In this document: positions 5,315 to 14,437 of the stretch, in pieces
Layout of the letters: each line of letters begins with the position of its first letter
Numbering within the stretch: position 1 is the stretch's first letter
Source: a virus
Length of the DNA: 21,294 nt
Virus record (IMG/VR): IMGVR_UViG_3300042542_004426
Coordinates: 1-21,294 of that record
Reading direction: 5' to 3' (one strand)
Made by a program: the position numbers and the translations under genes
The notes under the pieces: model-generated
Told to the model about the DNA's origin: nothing
The model's database searches: none
The model's input: the letters and a program-made list of their open reading frames with translations, nothing else

Positions 5315-5355
5315 CGGTGCAGAGCAGATGCACTGATGTTACCGATGCCTACCAG

Positions 5356-5748
5356 CTATTCCGGCTGTTGCGCGGGGAAGGCATCGAGGAACTGCTGGTA
5401 GAGATGGCCGCGGCGTTGCGGGCTGCCAACAGAAGCGAATTGCGGGTTGATGAGAAAGAAGTTCTGGCCGCTGTGTTGATCGCATGTGCGAACAATGAAG
5501 CGCTGCCTCTGGAGGCGACGAACTGAGGTTGAGCAGCGGGTCTGCTCAATCCCCATGGCCTGGGCCACGGCCTTCTGAGTCATGTTGACGCGACCGCTGC
5601 GCCAGTTGACGTGAGCGAGGAGGGTGAGCAGGACTGACATGTCGATGTGCTGAATCCGCCGCTCGCGCAGGGCTGTGACAACGGAGGTTGCTGCTTCTTC
5701 GGTGAAGACCATTACGAACCCCTCTGAACCGTCTTCATTTCTGTGCAT
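5356..5748 (-). CDS. Winged-helix DNA-binding regulator, RepL-like
   Basis: The 130-aa product has a helix-turn-helix at about residues 56-85 (MTQKAVAQAMGIEQT then STSVRRLQRQRFI). A wing follows and ends in FFLINPQFASVG at 97-108, then RRGHLYQQFLDAF. The order HTH, wing, LNPxF.x.G, hydrophobic end resembles RepL-type plasmid replication/maintenance proteins and related regulators. A CACCACCACC tract directly precedes the ATG on its own strand, as for several early genes on the other strand. CTAGGTGTCG motifs lie 45-80 bp upstream and could be its operators. It may act as a repressor or an origin-binding protein. Confidence 0.6.
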   Translation of the reverse strand: MHRNEDGSEGFVMVFTEEAATSVVTALRERRIQHIDMSVLLTLLAHVNWRSGRVNMTQKAVAQAMGIEQTRCSTSVRRLQRQRFIVRTCDQHSGQNFFLINPQFASVGSPQRRGHLYQQFLDAFPAQQPE

Positions 5749-5902: not shown

Positions 5903-6229
5903 GACATCCCAGCCCACCACCCATTCCCCGAAATGTCTTCTGATTCTTATCTGTAGACACAAAACAATTCACAGCCAGACAAGGCGAAAACACACCCCCA
6001 CCACTCACCCGCAGCACACCAACACACCCCCGCCACCATCACCAGCACACCTGCGGCACACTTCCCCCTCACAGGCGCCTGCAGGGCCTCTCAAGCCCGC
6101 TCAGCCTCCCAGCACACCCGCATACCCCCTGAGGCCTGTCACAGCCCCGCACAGACCCCTCATACGCGCTTCCTCCGCACACCCGCAGAACACAGCAACT
6201 CCCAATTTCACCCCGCGCAATTCGATGGG
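5903..6229. other. Gene-free, C-rich, strand-asymmetric stretch
   Basis: I see no gene here. The plus strand is rich in C and A and poor in G and T (runs such as CACACCCCCACCACTCACCC). At about 6230-6265 the bias switches to G/T-rich. By T7 gene order this lies between the last packaging gene and the first early gene, so it could span the genome ends or terminal repeat. No direct repeat long enough to be a terminal repeat is visible inside the window. Confidence 0.4.
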
Positions 6230-6247
6230 GGGACGCACATGCGTCCC
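6230..6247. terminator. Strong hairpin at the composition switch
   Basis: GGGACGCA (6230-6237) and TGCGTCCC (6240-6247) are a perfect 8-bp inverted repeat with a 2-nt centre, or a 7-bp stem with loop ACAT. It sits where plus-strand composition flips from C-rich to G-rich. No T-run follows on the plus strand. Terminator, origin or end-processing structure are all possible. Confidence 0.4.
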
Positions 6248-6453
6248 AGCCCTACCCCCCCCCTGCCCCCCCTGCTGCCGCTGGTGGGGTGCTGGCGGCG
6301 GGGCTGCGTGGTGCTGCTGGTGGTGCTGCTGCCCCTGGTGGGCCTGCTGGTGGTGGCCGCGGCGCTGGTGGGGCATCCGCGGGCCGGGCCTGCTGGCGGG
6401 GGCTGGGTTGTCTGCGGATTGGTGATCTGCTCACCACCACCAGCAGGGCAGCA

Positions 6454-6575
6454 GGTGCCCACCAGCAGGCGTGGCCGGTGCCCACCAGCAGGCGTGGCCG
6501 GTGCCCACCAGCAGGCGTGGCCGGTGCCCACCAGCAGGCGTGGCCGGTGCCCACCAGCAGGCGTGGCCGGTGCCC
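6454..6575. repeat. Five exact 23-bp tandem repeats plus a partial sixth
   Basis: Units start at 6454, 6477, 6500, 6523 and 6546 and are identical; a 7-bp partial begins at 6569. Each unit begins GGTGCCCACC, contains CCACCAGC and ends GGCGTGGCC. There are no spacers, so it is not a CRISPR. The period is about two helical turns, as in iterons. It precedes the early genes in a region with no convincing gene, which favours a role in replication or transcription control. Exact identity suggests recent amplification or selection. Confidence 0.85.
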
Positions 6576-6613
6576 GGTGTGACCGGATGTGAGAACCCTC
6601 CGACCTTGTGCTC

Positions 6614-6625
6614 TCCACATGTGGA
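6614..6625. promoter_or_regulatory. TCCACATGTGGA palindrome, possible operator
   Basis: This perfect 12-bp palindrome lies between the 23-bp repeats and the clamp-like gene. A related GCACATGTGC palindrome is at 14492-14501, upstream of the SSB gene. Both are intergenic and centred on CACATGTG, so a shared regulator is possible. I found no clear sigma70 promoter around it. Confidence 0.3.
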
Positions 6626-6667
6626 CAGGACGTGCTAGGAAGTGGGCGTGTTCTGCACCAGTGCCGA

Positions 6668-6693
6668 GCACCACCACCACCGAGAGAGAGACC
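6668..6693 (+). promoter_or_regulatory. CACC-tract / GAGAGAGAC leader ahead of the clamp-like gene
   Basis: A CACCACCACCACC tract runs into GAGAGAGAGACC immediately before the ATG. The same leader precedes the genes at 7546 and 8591, and shorter forms precede 9009, 10281 and (minus strand) 5748. GAGAGAG probably serves as the ribosome binding site although it is not the usual AGGAGG. Confidence 0.55.
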
Positions 6694-7461
6694 ATGACCA
6701 GCACCAGCACCAGCACCAGCACCAGCACCAGCACCAGCACCAGCACCAGCACCACCAGGGCCGCGGGTGAGAACGCGATCACGTGCACAGGCACGGTTGC
6801 GGTTCTGCCGCCGTGTCTGCTGTGGGCAGCGAGCCTTGCCGCTTCTGACGACACGGTGAAAGGCGTTATCTGCGCGATCGACGTTCGGCGGACTGCCGAG
6901 GGTTTGATCAGGGTGTGCGCGACTGATGGCCACCGCTTGTTTCGGGTGACCTTCCCTCAGTCTGAGCACTTCTGGATCAGCGCAGAACAGACTGAGCCAA
7001 TCCGGTTGAACCCTGCAGCGTTCTCAAAGGCGCCAACGAAGAAGGCGGTTCACGTTGCGTTGGATGCTTCGGGTGTCTGCACCTTCTCGGACCGTTTGAG
7101 CCAACCCGTGGGGGCTGGTGTGTGGACTGCAGCGACGCAAGCCAACGCGATCGGACAGACCTATCCGAACGTTGACCAGCTGTTCCCTGACGAGTTCAAG
7201 CTCACTTGCAACCCTGCCGCGGCCATCGGGTTTAACGCGTCCTACGTGGGGGACTTCTGCAAGATCGCCAGCAAGCTGACCCATAACGAAGTGGGCATGT
7301 GGCACACCACGGATTCAGCCATTGCGCCGCTGATTCTGCGGGCCTCGCTGCAGCTGGACTGGCTGCTGGTGGAACCCACGGGTTCGAAGTGGTGCCCGGT
7401 GTTCGATCACCCGGACGTGACGCTGGATTACCTGCTCATGCCGGTTCAGATCAGGAAGTGA
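6694..7461 (+). CDS. DNA polymerase III beta sliding clamp-like protein
   Basis: The 255-aa product shows several DnaN-like marks: ICAIDVRR...IRVCATDGHRLFRV at about 59-85 (DnaN typically has ATDGHRL), YPNVDQLFP at 157-165 (compare FPDYxxxiP), FNASYVGDFCKIASKL at 180-195 (compare the domain III opening) and a C-terminal DYLLMPVQIRK (compare YxxMPMRL). Bacterial clamps are about 370 aa, so this is shortened. A clamp encircles DNA and tethers polymerase and repair proteins. Residues 2-19 are nine Thr-Ser pairs encoded by a hexanucleotide repeat, absent from ordinary clamps. The start is fixed by the GAGAGAGACC leader. It may be a diverged clamp that binds host Pol III, a clamp decoy or a regulator. 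Confidence 0.6.
   Translation: MTSTSTSTSTSTSTSTSTSTTRAAGENAITCTGTVAVLPPCLLWAASLAASDDTVKGVICAIDVRRTAEGLIRVCATDGHRLFRVTFPQSEHFWISAEQTEPIRLNPAAFSKAPTKKAVHVALDASGVCTFSDRLSQPVGAGVWTAATQANAIGQTYPNVDQLFPDEFKLTCNPAAAIGFNASYVGDFCKIASKLTHNEVGMWHTTDSAIAPLILRASLQLDWLLVEPTGSKWCPVFDHPDVTLDYLLMPVQIRK
6697..6750 (+). repeat. (ACCAGC)9 hexanucleotide repeat inside the clamp-like gene
   Basis: Nine uninterrupted ACCAGC units follow the start codon and encode a Thr-Ser tail. A change in copy number would lengthen or shorten the tail without shifting the frame. The unit is related to the CACC tracts in the leaders, so slippage in the same sequence type may have created it. Confidence 0.95.
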
Positions 7462-7545: not shown

Positions 7546-8517
7546 ATGACAACCACCACCAGGAATCGGGCCCGCAAGACCTACGACGGGCCCACAGCAG
7601 AGGAGAAGCTGTGCGCTGCATTGGTTGAGCTTCTGACGCAAGGCGTCAACCCGTGGCGCAAGGAATGGGCAGCGGCTGAGGGTCCGCGCGGCCACCATCG
7701 GAACCTGATTACCGGCGCCAATTACCGGGGCGGCAACCCTGCCCTGCTGGAGATGTGGGCAGCCTGCCGCGGTTATGTGCAGCCGCTGTGGGTTGGGATT
7801 GCGCAGGGTAAGGCTGAGGGTTGGTTCCCTCGCAAGGGTTCTCAGGGCTGCTATGTGGTGCGGCCGCAGCTCAACAAGCGAGACGAGACTGACGCGGACG
7901 GCAAGCCCGTAACGGGCCCTGATGGGTCGCCGGTAGTGGCTGCCTGGGTGAGCTACAAACCGGCATGTGTCTTTAACGTTGCCGACCTGGTGGGCAGCAC
8001 CGAGGAGGCCGAGGCTCGGCTTCAGTCGCGCATCAGGGAGGCTATGGGCGACGTGATCAGCAGGCCTGAACCTGAGAGGCTCGCAGGTGCTGAGGCCGTC
8101 CTAGGTGCGTGGCCTGTCGAAACCGTCTGGACTGGCGACCGGGCGTTCTACAACTCGGGCACCGATCGGGTGACCATGCCCGAACGTGACCGGTTCAGCA
8201 GTGCAGAGGGTCTCTACGCGACGTGGGCCCATGAACAGGCGCACAGCACCGGCCACGCCAGCAGGCTGGCCCGCAAGCTCGGAAGCGGGTTCGGAAGCGA
8301 CGACTACGCGAGAGAGGAACTCGTGGCCGAGCTCGCCGCCTTCCTGATCTGCAATCGCCTTGAGATCAGCAGCAGCACCGAGAATCACGCGGCCTATCTG
8401 AGCCACTGGGCAGGCGTGCTCGGTGGTGGGCCGAAGGTGCTGTTCAAGGTCTTGAGCGATGCCACCAGGGCCGCCAATGCGATCTGCGGGCCCGAGGTGG
8501 AAGCGTCTGAGGCCTGA
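7546..8517 (+). CDS. ardC: ArdC-type antirestriction protein (ssDNA-binding domain plus zincin metalloprotease-like domain)
   Basis: The 323-aa product has the two-part ArdC architecture. The N-terminal domain shows LLTQGVNPWRKEW (about 30-41), an N-x-x-x-x-x-NY-R-GGNPALL stretch (53-68) and WFPRKGSQG (93-101), typical of the DUF1738 ssDNA-binding domain. The C-terminal domain shows AFYNSGTDRVTMP (200-212), a HEQAH metal site (229-233) in ATWAHEQAHSTGH and EELVAELAAF (257-266) with a likely third ligand. ArdC proteins coat or shield incoming single-stranded DNA and block restriction. In T7 an antirestriction gene (Ocr) is also among the first expressed, so the left-end position fits. Leader and intergenic module are shared with its neighbours. 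Confidence 0.85.
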   Translation: MTTTTRNRARKTYDGPTAEEKLCAALVELLTQGVNPWRKEWAAAEGPRGHHRNLITGANYRGGNPALLEMWAACRGYVQPLWVGIAQGKAEGWFPRKGSQGCYVVRPQLNKRDETDADGKPVTGPDGSPVVAAWVSYKPACVFNVADLVGSTEEAEARLQSRIREAMGDVISRPEPERLAGAEAVLGAWPVETVWTGDRAFYNSGTDRVTMPERDRFSSAEGLYATWAHEQAHSTGHASRLARKLGSGFGSDDYAREELVAELAAFLICNRLEISSSTENHAAYLSHWAGVLGGGPKVLFKVLSDATRAANAICGPEVEASEA

Positions 8518-9791: not shown

Positions 9792-10075
9792 GTCTGCGCC
9801 TAGTTGCATCGGTCGCCGTGCCCACCCGCCAGTATTGGTGGGAGGTTTCGGCACATGTTGAAACGCTCGGACGCCACCCGCGGCTAGTGCTGCACCAGTG
9901 CCAGACTCCTAGGTGTCGTAAGCATCAAGGCCCGTGGATCTGCCTCAACTTGAGCGAGCTCTGGCTGCTTTCGCCGTTCTCTCGCCGGTTTCGTTCCCTC
10001 TCCACCACGCCCAGGTCTTCCTGGTGGTGGCCAAGCGGGGGCAGTGCAGTTACTCGGAGATCGAGGAGGAGCTGA
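9788..10075 (+). CDS. Doubtful small ORF between two winged-helix genes
   Basis: A GTG overlaps the preceding stop as GTGA, which suggests translational coupling. The first 50 residues look protein-like (QYWWEVSAHVETLGRHPRL, then Cys residues at CQTPRC and WICLN). From about residue 50 it overlaps the winged-helix gene at 9934 in another frame and becomes Ser/Arg/Trp-rich, typical of a shadow frame. It could be a decayed gene or no gene at all. Confidence 0.22.
   Translation: MSLRLVASVAVPTRQYWWEVSAHVETLGRHPRLVLHQCQTPRCRKHQGPWICLNLSELWLLSPFSRRFRSLSTTPRSSWWWPSGGSAVTRRSRRS
9908..9918. promoter_or_regulatory. CCTAGGTGTCG motif upstream of winged-helix gene
   Basis: Exact match to the motif at 5807-5817. 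It ends 15 bp before the GTG of the regulator at 9934, so it is well placed as an autoregulatory operator or a promoter element. Confidence 0.4.
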
Positions 10076-10251
10076 GCATCACCAACGGCACCGTGAGCCG
10101 GTGCGTTCATGCCATGGGTGAGACCCATCGCAAGGGCTACCCCGGCCACGGGTTACTGGAGGCCTTTCGAGACCCCGCGGAAGGCCGGCGGTTCCTGGTT
10201 CGTCTCACCGCCAGAGGCCGGGCCCTGGCCCGCCAGATCGAGGGGCTCTAA
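9934..10251 (+). CDS. MarR-like winged-helix regulator (105 aa)
   Basis: The GTG start is the only one after an in-frame stop at 9919-9921; AAGG lies just upstream. The product has a helix LHHAQVFLVVAKRGQCSYSE (24-43), the HTH IEEELSITNGTVSRCVHAM (44-62), and a wing ending GRRFLVRLTARGRALARQI (84-102), the usual MarR end. It probably binds DNA as a dimer. It shares organisation with the gene at 9393, so the pair may have arisen by duplication. It precedes the integrase with only a CACC-type leader between them, making it a candidate lysogeny regulator. Confidence 0.7.
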   Translation: MDLPQLERALAAFAVLSPVSFPLHHAQVFLVVAKRGQCSYSEIEEELSITNGTVSRCVHAMGETHRKGYPGHGLLEAFRDPAEGRRFLVRLTARGRALARQIEGL

Positions 10252-10252
10252 C

Positions 10253-10280
10253 CACCACACCACCACCACCACCACACCAA
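10253..10280 (+). promoter_or_regulatory. CACC-tract leader ahead of the integrase
   Basis: CCACCACACCACCACCACC followed by ACACCAA fills the whole gap between the regulator stop and the integrase ATG. It is the CACC part of the early-gene intergenic module without hairpin or GAGAGAG. Confidence 0.5.
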
Positions 10281-11279
10281 ATGACTGGATCTGTTCGCCG
10301 TTGCGCGGATGGCAGCTGGGTTGCCGACGTGACGATCAACGGCATCCGCCGGACCGGGAAGTGCCGCACCAAGGCAGAGGCGACCGCTCGCAAGCGTGAG
10401 CTGCTCGACCAACTGATGCGCCGTGAAGCAAGCCCATTCCCCAGCGGTGCGTTCTGCCTGCGTGAAGCCCGGGCCCTCTCGATCAGGGTTCGCTGGTCTG
10501 GCCTGGCATACGAGCGGACCGCTGCCATCTACAGCCAGGAGGCCGTCAACCATTTCGGCGCCAGCTTCCCCCTCTCAGAGATCACTGCCCAGCTGGTGGA
10601 CAGCTGGCGGCAGGCCCTGCAGAGCAAGGGCAACCGGCCGAGCACGATCAACATGAAGGTGTCGGCCCTGCGCTCGATGCTCGCCGATGCCCACCTGCAC
10701 GGGCACCTGGCGGAAGTCCCGAGGATGCCCCGCCAGCTCAAGCTGACCAACACCAAGGACCGGGTGATCAGCGACGATGAGCGCGACCGCTTCTGCAAGT
10801 TCTTCTGCCAGCGGGGTGAGCCCGCCGCGGCCGATCTGCTGGTGTTCTTGTTGGAGACCGCTTGCCGCTGGGGTGAAGCCGAGCGGCTGCGTGGTGACGA
10901 CGTGGACCTGGCCCGCGGACGGGTGACCTTCTGGGCCACCAAGAACGGCAAGCCCCGCACCGTCCCACTCACCCGCCGCGCGATCGACGCCATCACACCC
11001 CACCTGCCGGCGGTTGGTGGGCACCGTGTCTGGCCCTACCCCTACTGGCAGTTCAAACGCCTGTTCGAGCAGGGCAAGGCCTCGATGGGACTGGAGGATG
11101 AGCCGGCCCTGACGATTCACACCACGCGCCACACCTGCGCCAGCAAGCTGGCCAGCCGGGGCATCCCCCTGCACCAGCTGATGACCTTTGGCGGGTGGAC
11201 ATCCCTGGCCAGCGTGCAGCGTTACCTGCACCTGAACACCGATGCGCTGGCTGCCTGCGTCAGTGCGCTGGAGGCCTGA
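10281..11279 (+). CDS. int: Tyrosine-recombinase integrase
   Basis: The 332-aa product has an N-terminal arm-binding segment (about 1-45, GSWVADVTINGIRRTGKCRT), a SAM-like core-binding domain (about 75-150) and a catalytic domain. Catalytic residues are visible: Arg196 in ETACRWGEAERL, Lys221 in TKNGKPRTVPL, His280-x-x-Arg283 in IHTTRHTCAS, Trp306 in the position often His (FGGWTS), and nucleophile Tyr315 in SVQRYLHL. It would integrate and excise phage DNA at the tRNA-like site about 590 bp downstream. The order integrase, att, RNA polymerase matches what I recall of cyanophage P-SSP7. No inactivating change is visible. Confidence 0.93.
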   Translation: MTGSVRRCADGSWVADVTINGIRRTGKCRTKAEATARKRELLDQLMRREASPFPSGAFCLREARALSIRVRWSGLAYERTAAIYSQEAVNHFGASFPLSEITAQLVDSWRQALQSKGNRPSTINMKVSALRSMLADAHLHGHLAEVPRMPRQLKLTNTKDRVISDDERDRFCKFFCQRGEPAAADLLVFLLETACRWGEAERLRGDDVDLARGRVTFWATKNGKPRTVPLTRRAIDAITPHLPAVGGHRVWPYPYWQFKRLFEQGKASMGLEDEPALTIHTTRHTCASKLASRGIPLHQLMTFGGWTSLASVQRYLHLNTDALAACVSALEA

Positions 11280-11281
11280 CT

Positions 11282-11542
11282 GTGCTCGGCCTGGTGCTGC
11301 TGGCCCAGCTGGCCGGCCCTCCCTGCGGGTGGAACTACGGGGTGGTGATCACCCCGCAGAACGCACCGTTCACCGGTTGCACCGTGCCCGATGCCCGCGG
11401 GGAGTATCCGGTGCGGCTGCGCATGGATCCCTTCAGCCCGAGCGGTGTGCGGGCCGAGCCGGCAAGCCCTCGCTACGACTTCAGTATCCCTTCTTCCCGC
11501 CCTTCCCAGACCCCTTCCCCATACCCTTCCCCTTGGCCATGA
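11282..11542 (+). CDS. Small exported protein (86 aa), unknown
   Basis: A GTG start lies 2 bp after the integrase stop. The N-terminus, LGLVLLAQLAGPPCGW, is a short hydrophobic segment and could be a signal or lipoprotein-like sequence, although no clear basic n-region is present. The middle carries two Cys (PPCGW, FTGCTVP) that could form a disulfide outside the cytoplasm. The end is rich in Pro and Ser. It overlaps the next membrane gene by ATGA. Candidate lysogenic-conversion or superinfection gene by position; family unknown. Confidence 0.5.
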   Translation: MLGLVLLAQLAGPPCGWNYGVVITPQNAPFTGCTVPDARGEYPVRLRMDPFSPSGVRAEPASPRYDFSIPSSRPSQTPSPYPSPWP

Positions 11543-11757
11543 CTGCAAGCAAGAGACGACGCCAATTCTCCCGACGTGGCGCGGACTGGCAAGCGTGGTG
11601 CGGACTGGCCGGCCTGCTGGTGCTGGGGGTGCTGCTGCTCACGTACCTGCTGCCTGTGACGCTGCTGGCCGTGACGATCTTCTGCATGGTGATCGCCCCG
11701 CTGGGCATGGTGCGCGAGGCCCGGCGCGAGCGGCTTGAGCGGGCCGGCAGGCCCTGA
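11539..11757 (+). CDS. Small membrane protein (72 aa)
   Basis: A basic N-terminus (MTASKRRRQFSRRGADW) is followed by a long hydrophobic stretch from about 20 to 55 (GLAGLLVLGVLLLTYLLPV, then TLLAVTIFCMVIAPLG), enough for one long or two short membrane helices. The tail, REARRERLERAGRP, is basic and cytoplasmic. Translationally coupled to the preceding exported protein. It could be a holin-like or exclusion protein; nothing distinguishes these. Confidence 0.6.
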   Translation: MTASKRRRQFSRRGADWQAWCGLAGLLVLGVLLLTYLLPVTLLAVTIFCMVIAPLGMVREARRERLERAGRP

Positions 11758-11869
11758 TGCGCTTTGTACTGTGGATGCGTTCACCGGATCCAGATTTCTG
11801 CTGCAGTCGTCCGCATCCAGCAGACCTCGGCAGACCCCAGAAACCCTGAGAACCGTTGGTACAACTGGC

Positions 11870-11914
11870 GGGAGCATGGCGGAAATGGCAGACGCAGCGG
11901 ACTTAAAATCTGCG
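11870..11914 (+). other. attP: Probable attP: 5' half of a tRNA-Leu(UAA) gene
   Basis: The sequence folds as the 5' part of tRNA-Leu. GGGAGCA (11870-11876) would be the 5' acceptor strand, followed by TG. The D-arm has stem GCG/CGC (11879-11881, 11893-11895) with loop GAAATGGCAGA. The anticodon arm is GCGGA/TCTGC with loop CTTAAAA and anticodon TAA at 11904-11906. No T-arm or 3' acceptor strand (TGCTCCC expected) follows, so this is not a complete tRNA. A tRNA fragment directly downstream of an integrase operon is the classical form of a phage attachment site. The anticodon loop is uninterrupted, so the matching host gene should lack the group I intron found in many cyanobacterial tRNA-Leu(UAA) genes. 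Confidence 0.75.
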
Positions 11915-11983
11915 TGCGATAGCTGAACACCTGCAGAGCATTGACCGGAACAGGTCTGCCAGGGGTGTTGGCCAACTCTGCAC

Positions 11984-14437
11984 ATGTCGGGTGGAATTGA
12001 TGCCGAAAGCAGCCTGAACTGCAGCCTGATGACCCAATGCAGTTCATCCGCAGGGGTGGAAGGAACCCAGAGGCAGAGGGAACAGCGGGAACTAGAGCGG
12101 GCTCACTGGGCCGCGATCAACGCCACCAGCCGCCTGAAGACCCTCGGCCGCGAGTCGGCCACAGCTCACGGCCAGGCCCTGTTCACGCAGCACGCCGAGC
12201 GGGTGACGGTGGCCCTGGGGCTGCTGCTGGAGGAGCTGCTGGCCAACCCGAGCAAGGCCGGGCGACACCTGGCCTGCTGGCCGCTGCTGCTGCTGGTCAA
12301 CCGAGGCCCCCGCTCGATGGCCCTGATTGCCCTGTCGGTGGTGATCGACACGATCAGCAAGCGACCGCTCGACACCACGCTGGCAGTGGCGATCGGCCGC
12401 GCCCTGGAGGATGAGATCAAGGCCTCTCGCATCGAGGCCAACCGTGGGCAGGCCCTGCTGCGGTTGATCCGTCGCCGGCTTGGCGCTCGGCGCCTGTCCG
12501 ATCCGAAGGTGCTGGCTCAGCTGCGACTGGACACCAGCGGCTGGGAGCCCTCGCAACGCCGGATGGTGGGGCTGCTGCTGCTGGAGGTGATCGAGGCCAA
12601 CACCGATCTGATCCAGTTTCGGAACGTCACCAGCCGCCGCCGGTCGCAACGGCTTGTTGAGGCCACCAAGGCAGCCATGGCCGTGATTGCTGCCAATCCG
12701 CCGCGGCCATCACCAGCACGGAAGCTGCCGCTGCTGCTGCCGCCACGCGACTGGCCGGGCATGGTCGGCGGTGGCCACCTGAGCAGCAGCGAACCGCTGG
12801 TGCATGGCCGTGGTGGGCAGGACTTCAGCTACATCACCCCGGATGGCCTGGCGCCGGTGCTGCGGGTTGTGAACCACCTGCAGCGGCAGCAGCTGCTGGT
12901 CGATCCCTGGATGGTTGAGCAGCAGCGCCTGGCCTGGGACCACAACATCTGCGGGGTGTTCCCTGTCCGCCGCGAGGGACGACCGGAACCGCCGCGGCCG
13001 ACCGAGATGGTTGGGGCTGAGGCGTGGGGCGACTACCAGCGGGAGAGGCGTGCAGCGCTGCGGGAACAGCTGGAAGGTGCCAGCGAGCGGCGACGAATTG
13101 AGAGCTCGATCCGGCAGTGCGAGGAGGTTGCCGGGTTGCCGGTCTGGTTCGCCTACTTCGCCGACTTTCGCGGGCGGATCTTCAGCAGCAACCGCTATGC
13201 CACCCACCAGGGGCCCGACTGGGAGAAGGGGGCAATTCAGTTCGCGGCAGGCGATCGGGTCTCGGTGGAGGGGTTCGAGTGGTTGCTGAAGGCCGCCGCC
13301 GGCCACTGGGGAATCAGCAGCAGCTGGGCAGATCGCCTGCGCTGGGGGCAGCAGCACATGCCCGAACTGGTGGCCGCGGCCGAGGCACCGCTTGACCGTC
13401 TGGGGTTGTGGCGCGATGCGAAACAGCCCTGGCAGTTCCTGCAGCTGTGCCGCGCGATTGCCCAGCAGGTGGCAGACCCGGACAGCTTGTGCGCGGTGCC
13501 GATCCGGTTTGATCAAACCTGCTCAGGCATTGGCATCAGCGCAGCGCTGCTGCGCGACCGCCCCCTGGCCCGGCTGACCAACATTTGGGGGCAGACCCGG
13601 CAGGACATCTACGGGCATGTGGCTGAGCGGCTGATCCACCTGCTGCGGATGGATCTGAGCAACGGGATGGAAGCAGAGCAGCGACTGGCTGAGTTCTGGC
13701 TGGGCTTCGGCATCAACCGCAGCGTGACGAAGGGCCCGGTGATGACGAGCGTTTACGGGGCTCAGCACATGGGCATCACCGAGGGGTTGATTGCCCTGCT
13801 CACAGAGCGCGATACCGACCTGCGGGTGGGGCAGTGGCAGCGGGGCTACGTGACGCCGGCCAGCTACCTGAGCCGCAAGCTGACGCTGCTGCTGCAAGCA
13901 GAGCTCGGCAGCTGCATTGCATTGCGCAGCTGGCTCAAGGACACATGCCGCGAGGTTGTCAGCCGAGGCCGGCCGCTGCGATGGACCAGCCCGATGGGGT
14001 TCCCGGTGCAGCTGGGGCAACAGCTCGATGGCAGGCGCAACGTGACGAGCCTGACCCGAGGGCAGCGGCGATGGCAGGCGGCCGGCGAGGAAGCGATGGC
14101 GAAGGAGCTGAGCGCCCGGCAGACCAACACCTCGATCAGCAGCAACTTCATCCACAGCTTTGACGCGGCCCTGTGCCACAGCATTGTCTCGATGTGTGCA
14201 GAGCAAGGGGTTGCGGTCCTAGTGAACCACGACTGTTTTGCGACGACGCCCGGCCGAGCTGGATGGCTGCACCAGGCGCTGCACGACGCGTTGCGGGCCT
14301 TGTATGCGCCCGACTGGATGGCTGAGGTTGCGGCCGAGATCGCAGGTAACAACAGGGATCTCAAGATCAAGGCGCCGCCGATGGTTGGCAGCTTGTGCCC
14401 GGGAGAGATCGGGCACAACCCAAACTGCTTCTCATGA
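11984..14437 (+). CDS. Single-subunit DNA-dependent RNA polymerase, T7 gp1-like
   Basis: The 817-aa product (T7: 883) carries the family motifs. FADFRGRIF at 392-400 is the DxxGR loop. FDQTCSGIGISAALLRD from Asp510 is motif A with the first catalytic Asp. NRSVTKGPVMTSVYG at 578-592 is motif B, with Arg579, Lys583 and Tyr591 spaced as T7 Arg627, Lys631 and Tyr639. NFIHSFDAALCHS is at 721-733. VNHDCF at 747-752 is motif C with Asp750. All catalytic residues are present. The C-terminus is NPNCFS where T7 ends FAFA. It would transcribe middle and late phage genes. The start is uncertain: ATG 11984 has no good ribosome binding site and an in-frame ATG at 12029 is possible. It is the first gene after the attachment site. 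Confidence 0.95.
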   Translation: MSGGIDAESSLNCSLMTQCSSSAGVEGTQRQREQRELERAHWAAINATSRLKTLGRESATAHGQALFTQHAERVTVALGLLLEELLANPSKAGRHLACWPLLLLVNRGPRSMALIALSVVIDTISKRPLDTTLAVAIGRALEDEIKASRIEANRGQALLRLIRRRLGARRLSDPKVLAQLRLDTSGWEPSQRRMVGLLLLEVIEANTDLIQFRNVTSRRRSQRLVEATKAAMAVIAANPPRPSPARKLPLLLPPRDWPGMVGGGHLSSSEPLVHGRGGQDFSYITPDGLAPVLRVVNHLQRQQLLVDPWMVEQQRLAWDHNICGVFPVRREGRPEPPRPTEMVGAEAWGDYQRERRAALREQLEGASERRRIESSIRQCEEVAGLPVWFAYFADFRGRIFSSNRYATHQGPDWEKGAIQFAAGDRVSVEGFEWLLKAAAGHWGISSSWADRLRWGQQHMPELVAAAEAPLDRLGLWRDAKQPWQFLQLCRAIAQQVADPDSLCAVPIRFDQTCSGIGISAALLRDRPLARLTNIWGQTRQDIYGHVAERLIHLLRMDLSNGMEAEQRLAEFWLGFGINRSVTKGPVMTSVYGAQHMGITEGLIALLTERDTDLRVGQWQRGYVTPASYLSRKLTLLLQAELGSCIALRSWLKDTCREVVSRGRPLRWTSPMGFPVQLGQQLDGRRNVTSLTRGQRRWQAAGEEAMAKELSARQTNTSISSNFIHSFDAALCHSIVSMCAEQGVAVLVNHDCFATTPGRAGWLHQALHDALRALYAPDWMAEVAAEIAGNNRDLKIKAPPMVGSLCPGEIGHNPNCFS

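Follow-up and report, generated by a model that had tools for sequence, protein, structure and literature searches.

The 5′ half of a tRNA-Leu(UAA) gene as the likely attachment-site core of a freshwater T7-like cyanophage

Introduction

Why should a phage carry the first half of a transfer RNA (tRNA) gene, ending at the anticodon arm, directly 3′ of its integrase gene (int)? The question is raised by positions 11870–11914 of the IMG/VR virus record IMGVR_UViG_3300042542_004426, an incomplete stretch of 21,294 bases (here the window). Its closest relative among named phages is the freshwater Synechococcus phage S-SRP02 (MW822601), whose genome is about twice as long. A sequence-only reading had taken the fragment for a phage attachment site (attP) made from the 5′ half of a tRNA-Leu(UAA) gene with an uninterrupted anticodon loop, and this is borne out by the match to host genes, by the position beside int and by the relatives. 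We put the probability at about 0.9 that 11870–11913, derived from the tRNA-Leu(UAA) 5′ half, forms the attP core in a T7-like freshwater cyanophage belonging to the S-SRP02 lineage.

A 5′-half tRNA-Leu attP has already been published for T7-like cyanophages, of which the window is a further case in the distinct S-SRP02 freshwater lineage. In the marine phages, four 39-base-pair (bp) attP motifs (groups I–IV) match the first half of tRNA-Leu, all of them perfectly (Shitrit et al. 2021, PMC8776855). Integration at tRNA-Leu has been shown by others for P-SSP7 and S-TIP37; in S-TIP37 both int and attP are required, integration being lost on attP deletion, and stable lysogens were not obtained in Shitrit et al. 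2021 (PMC8776855). New here are the conservation pattern of the 5′ half, the use of one core at three tRNA genes in both directions, and relatives at chromosomal junctions.

Results

The fragment lies between int and the gene of a T7-like RNA polymerase (RNAP). It opens with the 5′ acceptor strand GGGAGCA (11870–11876), continues with a D-arm whose GCG/CGC stem is intact (11879–11895) and closes with the anticodon arm GCGGA-CTTAAAA-TCTGC (11897–11913), past which there is neither a variable arm nor a T-arm, the same anatomy that the earlier reading had described. According to ARAGORN the window contains no complete tRNA, and Rfam reports none at this site at an expectation value (E) of 10 or below, in line with the presence of only half a gene. 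The core features are as follows.

11870–11908, plus strand: attP identity block, from tRNA-Leu(UAA) nucleotide (nt) 1 to the end of the anticodon loop
11895–11913, plus strand: core site CAGCGGA-CTTAAAA-TCTGC, common to relatives that use tRNA-Met(CAU) and tRNA-Tyr(GUA)
11902–11908, plus strand: presumed 7-bp overlap within the core, with putative cleavage positions; relatives vary again directly past the loop

Positions 11870–11908 match the commonest freshwater Cyanobiaceae tRNA-Leu(UAA) allele (GGGAGCATGGCGGAATTGGTAGACGCAGCGGACTTAAAA; for example Cyanobium L175) at 37 of 39 positions, and both mismatches, where the window has A and C, fall in the D-loop. The local score is 35, whereas none of 200 Markov-1 simulated windows exceeds 15, so that the match is far above chance. 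The fragment proposed at 11870–11914 is thus confirmed, but its host-shared block is best taken as 11870–11908, with 11909–11914 being the 3′ anticodon strand, which relatives are free to vary. When the window 5′ half is joined to the host 3′ half, ARAGORN scores the hybrid as tRNA-Leu(taa), and other hybrids of phage 5′ and host 3′ halves score as tRNA-Leu or tRNA-Met, a weak test in that versions with a broken D-stem pair are also accepted.

Among 23 viral loci with related integrases, a tRNA-Leu half is present in 15 and the 5′ half of a CAU tRNA in 4, while in 4 no tRNA half was found beside the integrase. S-SRP02 has its own version of the half tRNA-Leu at the same place, and the order int, half tRNA, RNAP is common to the window, S-SRP02, the 15 loci and P-SSP7. 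This recurrence bears on the idea that the fragment is a truncated phage tRNA gene, left over from a complete one that served translation. T4-like cyanophages do carry complete tRNA-Leu genes, 84–89% identical over the window's half-tRNA stretch, but both throughout the clade and in P-SSP7 the gene is again cut off at the anticodon loop, always beside int, and such an origin is extremely improbable.

The pattern of change was read from 15 distinct phage fragments, each compared with its nearest sampled host allele. Differences fill 33 of 165 cells in the D-loop and 14 of 75 in the 3′ anticodon strand just past the loop, but only 3 of 375 across the acceptor strand, D-stem, 5′ anticodon strand and loop; counted as distinct changes, these are 7, 4 and 3, respectively. 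With the stems and loop retained and variation confined largely to the D-loop and the bases beyond the anticodon loop, the fragments look as they would if the phage supplied a working tRNA half from nt 1 to the loop, were unconstrained past that point and had its crossover within the anticodon loop. Five CAU-type phages (L127, L128, L132, L133 and L312) carry a paired D-stem change from A-T to T-A that keeps the pairing and is absent from the listed Cyanobiaceae host matches. The identity block is bounded at the anticodon loop, just past which the fragments diverge. In P-SSP7, which has the same arrangement, identity to Prochlorococcus tRNA-Leu likewise ends at the end of the loop, and the attP and attR (an integration junction) of relatives using tRNA-Tyr share sequence as far as ...TTTACAGTC and then diverge. 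These observations support the earlier proposal that crossover replaces the 5′ half of the host gene, with the phage as donor; this is the rarer polarity, a displaced 5′ fragment being found in 159 of 3919 Islander islands (PMC4383910).

A P-SSP7-like site was also met in Prochlorococcus AH-736-N03 (L153:5388–6966), where a half tRNA-Leu precedes a right arm that shares 85.9% identity with that of P-SSP7 over 170 nt; next come about 1.4 kb that lack an integrase hit, and then a complete tRNA-Leu with its own promoter-like sequence upstream. It is possible that this is a small element using a P-SSP7-type att site; L181 and L316 hold similar duplications.

Related integrases adjoin three kinds of tRNA sequence that share the core CAGCGGA-N7-TCCGC. 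Read in the direction of int, the core is CAGCGGA-CTTAAAA-TCCGC at tRNA-Leu(UAA), CAGCGGA-CTCATAA-TCCGC at the CAU tRNA (tRNA-Met(CAU) by ARAGORN, possibly Ile2) and CAGCGGA-TTTACAG-TCCGC at tRNA-Tyr(GUA), where the tRNA lies on the opposite strand; the right half of the core varies somewhat among related loci. The polarity differs as well: the Leu and Met types donate a 5′ half, and the Tyr type a 3′ half plus a complete tRNA-Thr, both of which lie between int and RNAP in the free phages L346 and L351. Integration of the Tyr type would therefore keep the host promoter and restore the Tyr-Thr pair. The closest comparison is between L126 (Leu) and L127 (Met), with integrases alike at all but 2 of 332 residues and flanks 97% identical over 5 kb; the two differ mainly in the tRNA fragment (UAA versus CAU; 5338–5390 in both) and a few bases after it. 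The left boundary of this swap lies at or beside tRNA nt 1. Exchange of exactly the half left of the crossover is not explained by ordinary integration and excision.

On balance we favour a history in which the S-SRP02-like integrase type has repeatedly switched its target among Leu, Met and Tyr genes in both polarities with the protein almost unchanged, forming natural prophages in which selection keeps the half-tRNAs functional, although the integrase tree holds many open forks and the number of target changes is not settled. The same comparisons speak to whether the half-tRNA might instead be expressed and act as an RNA, as a tRNA fragment or decoy. Its conserved structure and the promoter-like sequence just upstream of it in P-SSP7 would suit such a role, but it sits beside int, deletion of attP abolished integration in S-TIP37 (PMC8776855), a relative whose integrase departs from it at only 2 of 332 positions has the half of a different tRNA at the same place, and the Tyr type carries a 3′ half instead. 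We regard an RNA role as very improbable and the attP as the better account.

Several other loci were considered. The tRNA-Thr(GGU) loci were dropped as anticodon sites in tRNA-Thr, since tRNA-Thr is present in full in relatives that are free phages, and it is in the tRNA-Tyr anticodon loop that the shared block stops. In the L129 group (integrase 64% identical) no att site was found, and its CAGCGGATCTCAAATCCGC, which lies about 2 kb upstream of int, is not set in a tRNA. MedDCM-OCT-S31-C1 (L146:5004–5180) has an annotated, complete CAU tRNA next to its integrase and, about 130 nt further on, a second GGACTCATAATCC motif. Six viral contigs with no detectable relative of the window integrase (L344, L345, L349, L350, L352 and L353) carry a 3′ tRNA-Thr(GGU) fragment, bounded by the anticodon loop, which is probably the attP of other phages.

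Chromosomal or host-containing junctions of relatives are seen at the tRNA-Tyr/tRNA-Thr locus. On contig G208:C71, host genes (aroQ-like and others, identified by reading translations rather than by database search), tRNA-Tyr and tRNA-Thr adjoin an integrase of 71% identity together with its MarR gene. This junction is also found at the end of G053:C123, from an assembly that has contigs with the empty site as well. The 41.3-kb viral contig G405 is ordered as an integrated phage would be, with RNAP at one end opposite int, tRNA-Thr, tRNA-Tyr and a host leader at the other; its tail matches the host leader in G053. Assembly error is possible in any single one of these three cases. A second tRNA-Tyr/tRNA-Thr copy on G208:C42 was not counted as attL (the opposite junction) because its sequence differs, nor was G407 as a prophage, since its terminal repeats may reflect a circular molecule.

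These junctions help to weigh the possibility that the phage has become strictly lytic and the fragment is a relic, either an attP no longer in use or host DNA that was picked up. The two D-loop differences from sampled hosts and the lack of a visible promoter before the fragment would agree with this, but the tRNA stems and loop are kept across diverged relatives whose D-loop and past-loop sequences vary, the integrase frame is intact with its motifs, and relatives with 65–73% identical integrases are found at host junctions. A relic is therefore unlikely, and a functional attP remains our reading.

Several points weigh against that reading. The window record is incomplete, and the 15 compared fragments are kin, so that their counts are not 15 independent tests. 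No integrated copy at tRNA-Leu was found for the window phage or its close freshwater relatives, whose junctions are at tRNA-Tyr; of the attL/attR junctions suggested as a check by the sequence-only reading, those at tRNA-Tyr/tRNA-Thr in relatives were recovered and none for the window phage. That reading had also proposed, as a check, a host identical over about 40 bp, which was not found: the best match is 37/39 in 400 Cyanobiaceae genomes (part of the family), and in 399 genomes of the order there is none with one mismatch or fewer over 36 nt. Finally, no promoter above chance precedes the window fragment (score 2.4, half of shuffles as good).

With regard to the host, uninterrupted tRNA-Leu(UAA) genes are common in freshwater Cyanobiaceae, which fits the prediction of a host gene that lacks the group I intron. 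The exact 37-mer of the window has no match in GTDB genomes and, among viral contigs, occurs in three related phage contigs only. Phage contigs L355–L357 share 47 identical nt with the window across the half-tRNA block even though their integrase regions are about 70–72% identical in DNA, which hints at a real, unsampled host allele.

A phage that gives the 5′ half has to provide for its transcription as well. The expectation that phage sequence upstream would hold a tRNA promoter is met in P-SSP7, where TTGTTA-16-TATAAT begins 25 nt before the half-tRNA (score 11.8, 0.6% of shuffles as good), but not before the window's fragment. Four further tRNA-Leu-half loci (L049, L104, L108 and L111) also score well upstream, with 0.8–3% of shuffles as good, and the window's clade, like the window, has no promoter above chance before the half-tRNA. 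Absence of a window promoter does not follow, since the matrix also misses the promoters of GC-rich Cyanobium tRNA genes themselves. As no terminator-like site was found in 10200–12100, read-through remains possible.

The neighbourhood of the attP comprises the following.

9934–10251, plus strand: MarR-type transcriptional regulator adjoining the integrase (phrog_9665 transcription regulator, E 5e-23)
10281–11279, plus strand: tyrosine integrase of 332 amino acids (PF00589, E 1.7e-20, residues 184–319; phrog_1 integrase, E 1.2e-45)
11771–11787, strand not assigned: conserved P-arm element GTGGATGCGTTCACCGG, a candidate arm-type integrase site; related loci conserve it about 105 nt 5′ of the half-tRNA
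11927–12060, strand not assigned: P′ arm with recurring CACCCCTGCA-type motifs, candidate arm-type sites; TCCACCCCTG matches recur in related loci
11984–14437, plus strand: T7-like single-subunit RNAP (PF00940, E 2e-51; phrog_414, E 4e-125), whose true start may lie downstream of 11984

The regulator matches Pfam MarR_2 at E 9e-4, under the Pfam cut-off, and sits where S-SRP02 and MedDCM phages have annotated MarR genes. The integrase, 75.6% identical in amino acids to that of S-SRP02, has the tyrosine recombinase catalytic domain with the motifs CRWGEAERL, HTTRHT and QRYLHL visible, and a plasmid search returned distant relatives only. The CACCCCTGCA-type motifs of the P′ arm lie at about 11928–11939 (plus), 11960–11969 (minus) and 12051–12060 (minus). 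Elsewhere, the window encodes an ArdC-like anti-restriction protein (7546–8517; phrog_7245, E 9e-68; Pfam ArdcN and MPTase-PolyVal) and has a low-complexity repetitive stretch at about 6200–6900, where short tandem repeats show in overlapping-frame translations.

Discussion

If the window phage is active, its tyrosine integrase would pair the attP core with the anticodon arm of an intronless tRNA-Leu(UAA) gene in the host and exchange strands within the 7-bp anticodon loop CTTAAAA, at putative cleavage positions. The int-proximal end would then read phage sequence, phage 5′ half and host 3′ half, a complete tRNA-Leu(UAA), and the host's own 5′ half would be left on the RNAP side as a dead fragment. 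The rebuilt tRNA would be transcribed from a promoter that we did not recognise or by read-through from the integrase region.

Like P-SSP7 and S-TIP37, the window is T7-like, with the order int, attP, RNAP, a block from the first half of tRNA-Leu(UAA) and a block end at the anticodon loop. It differs from these marine phages in its freshwater lineage, in an integrase only about 24% identical to that of P-SSP7, in its imperfect match to sampled hosts (37/39), in a half-tRNA that has no recognisable promoter upstream and in close relatives that use tRNA-Met(CAU) or tRNA-Tyr(GUA). With S-SRP02 it shares lineage, gene order and the place of the half tRNA-Leu; the two half-tRNA sequences agree at 38 of 44 positions and depart from each other in the D-loop and in the strand beyond the anticodon loop. 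A term search of the S-SRP02 paper gave no mention of an attachment site, and the half tRNA-Leu of that phage was found in the present analysis. Crossover in the anticodon loop with a 5′ half given by the element is likewise found in Islander 5′-fragment islands (PMC4383910) and with archaeal pTN3-type integrases (PMC8371274). In pTN3 elements it is the integrase promoter that drives the rebuilt tRNA, an arrangement rare in bacteria (PMC8371274); the pTN3 integrases are archaeal and split by integration, whereas the window integrase stays whole.

The published tRNA-Leu attP of marine T7-like cyanophages is thereby extended to a separate freshwater lineage. Within it, the L126/L127 pair amounts to a natural experiment on change of integrase target in which the main variable is the 7-bp overlap. 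Because selection on a donated tRNA half needs surviving cells with an integrated phage, the conservation of that half suggests that S-SRP02-like phages do become prophages, which has not been seen in marine cultures.
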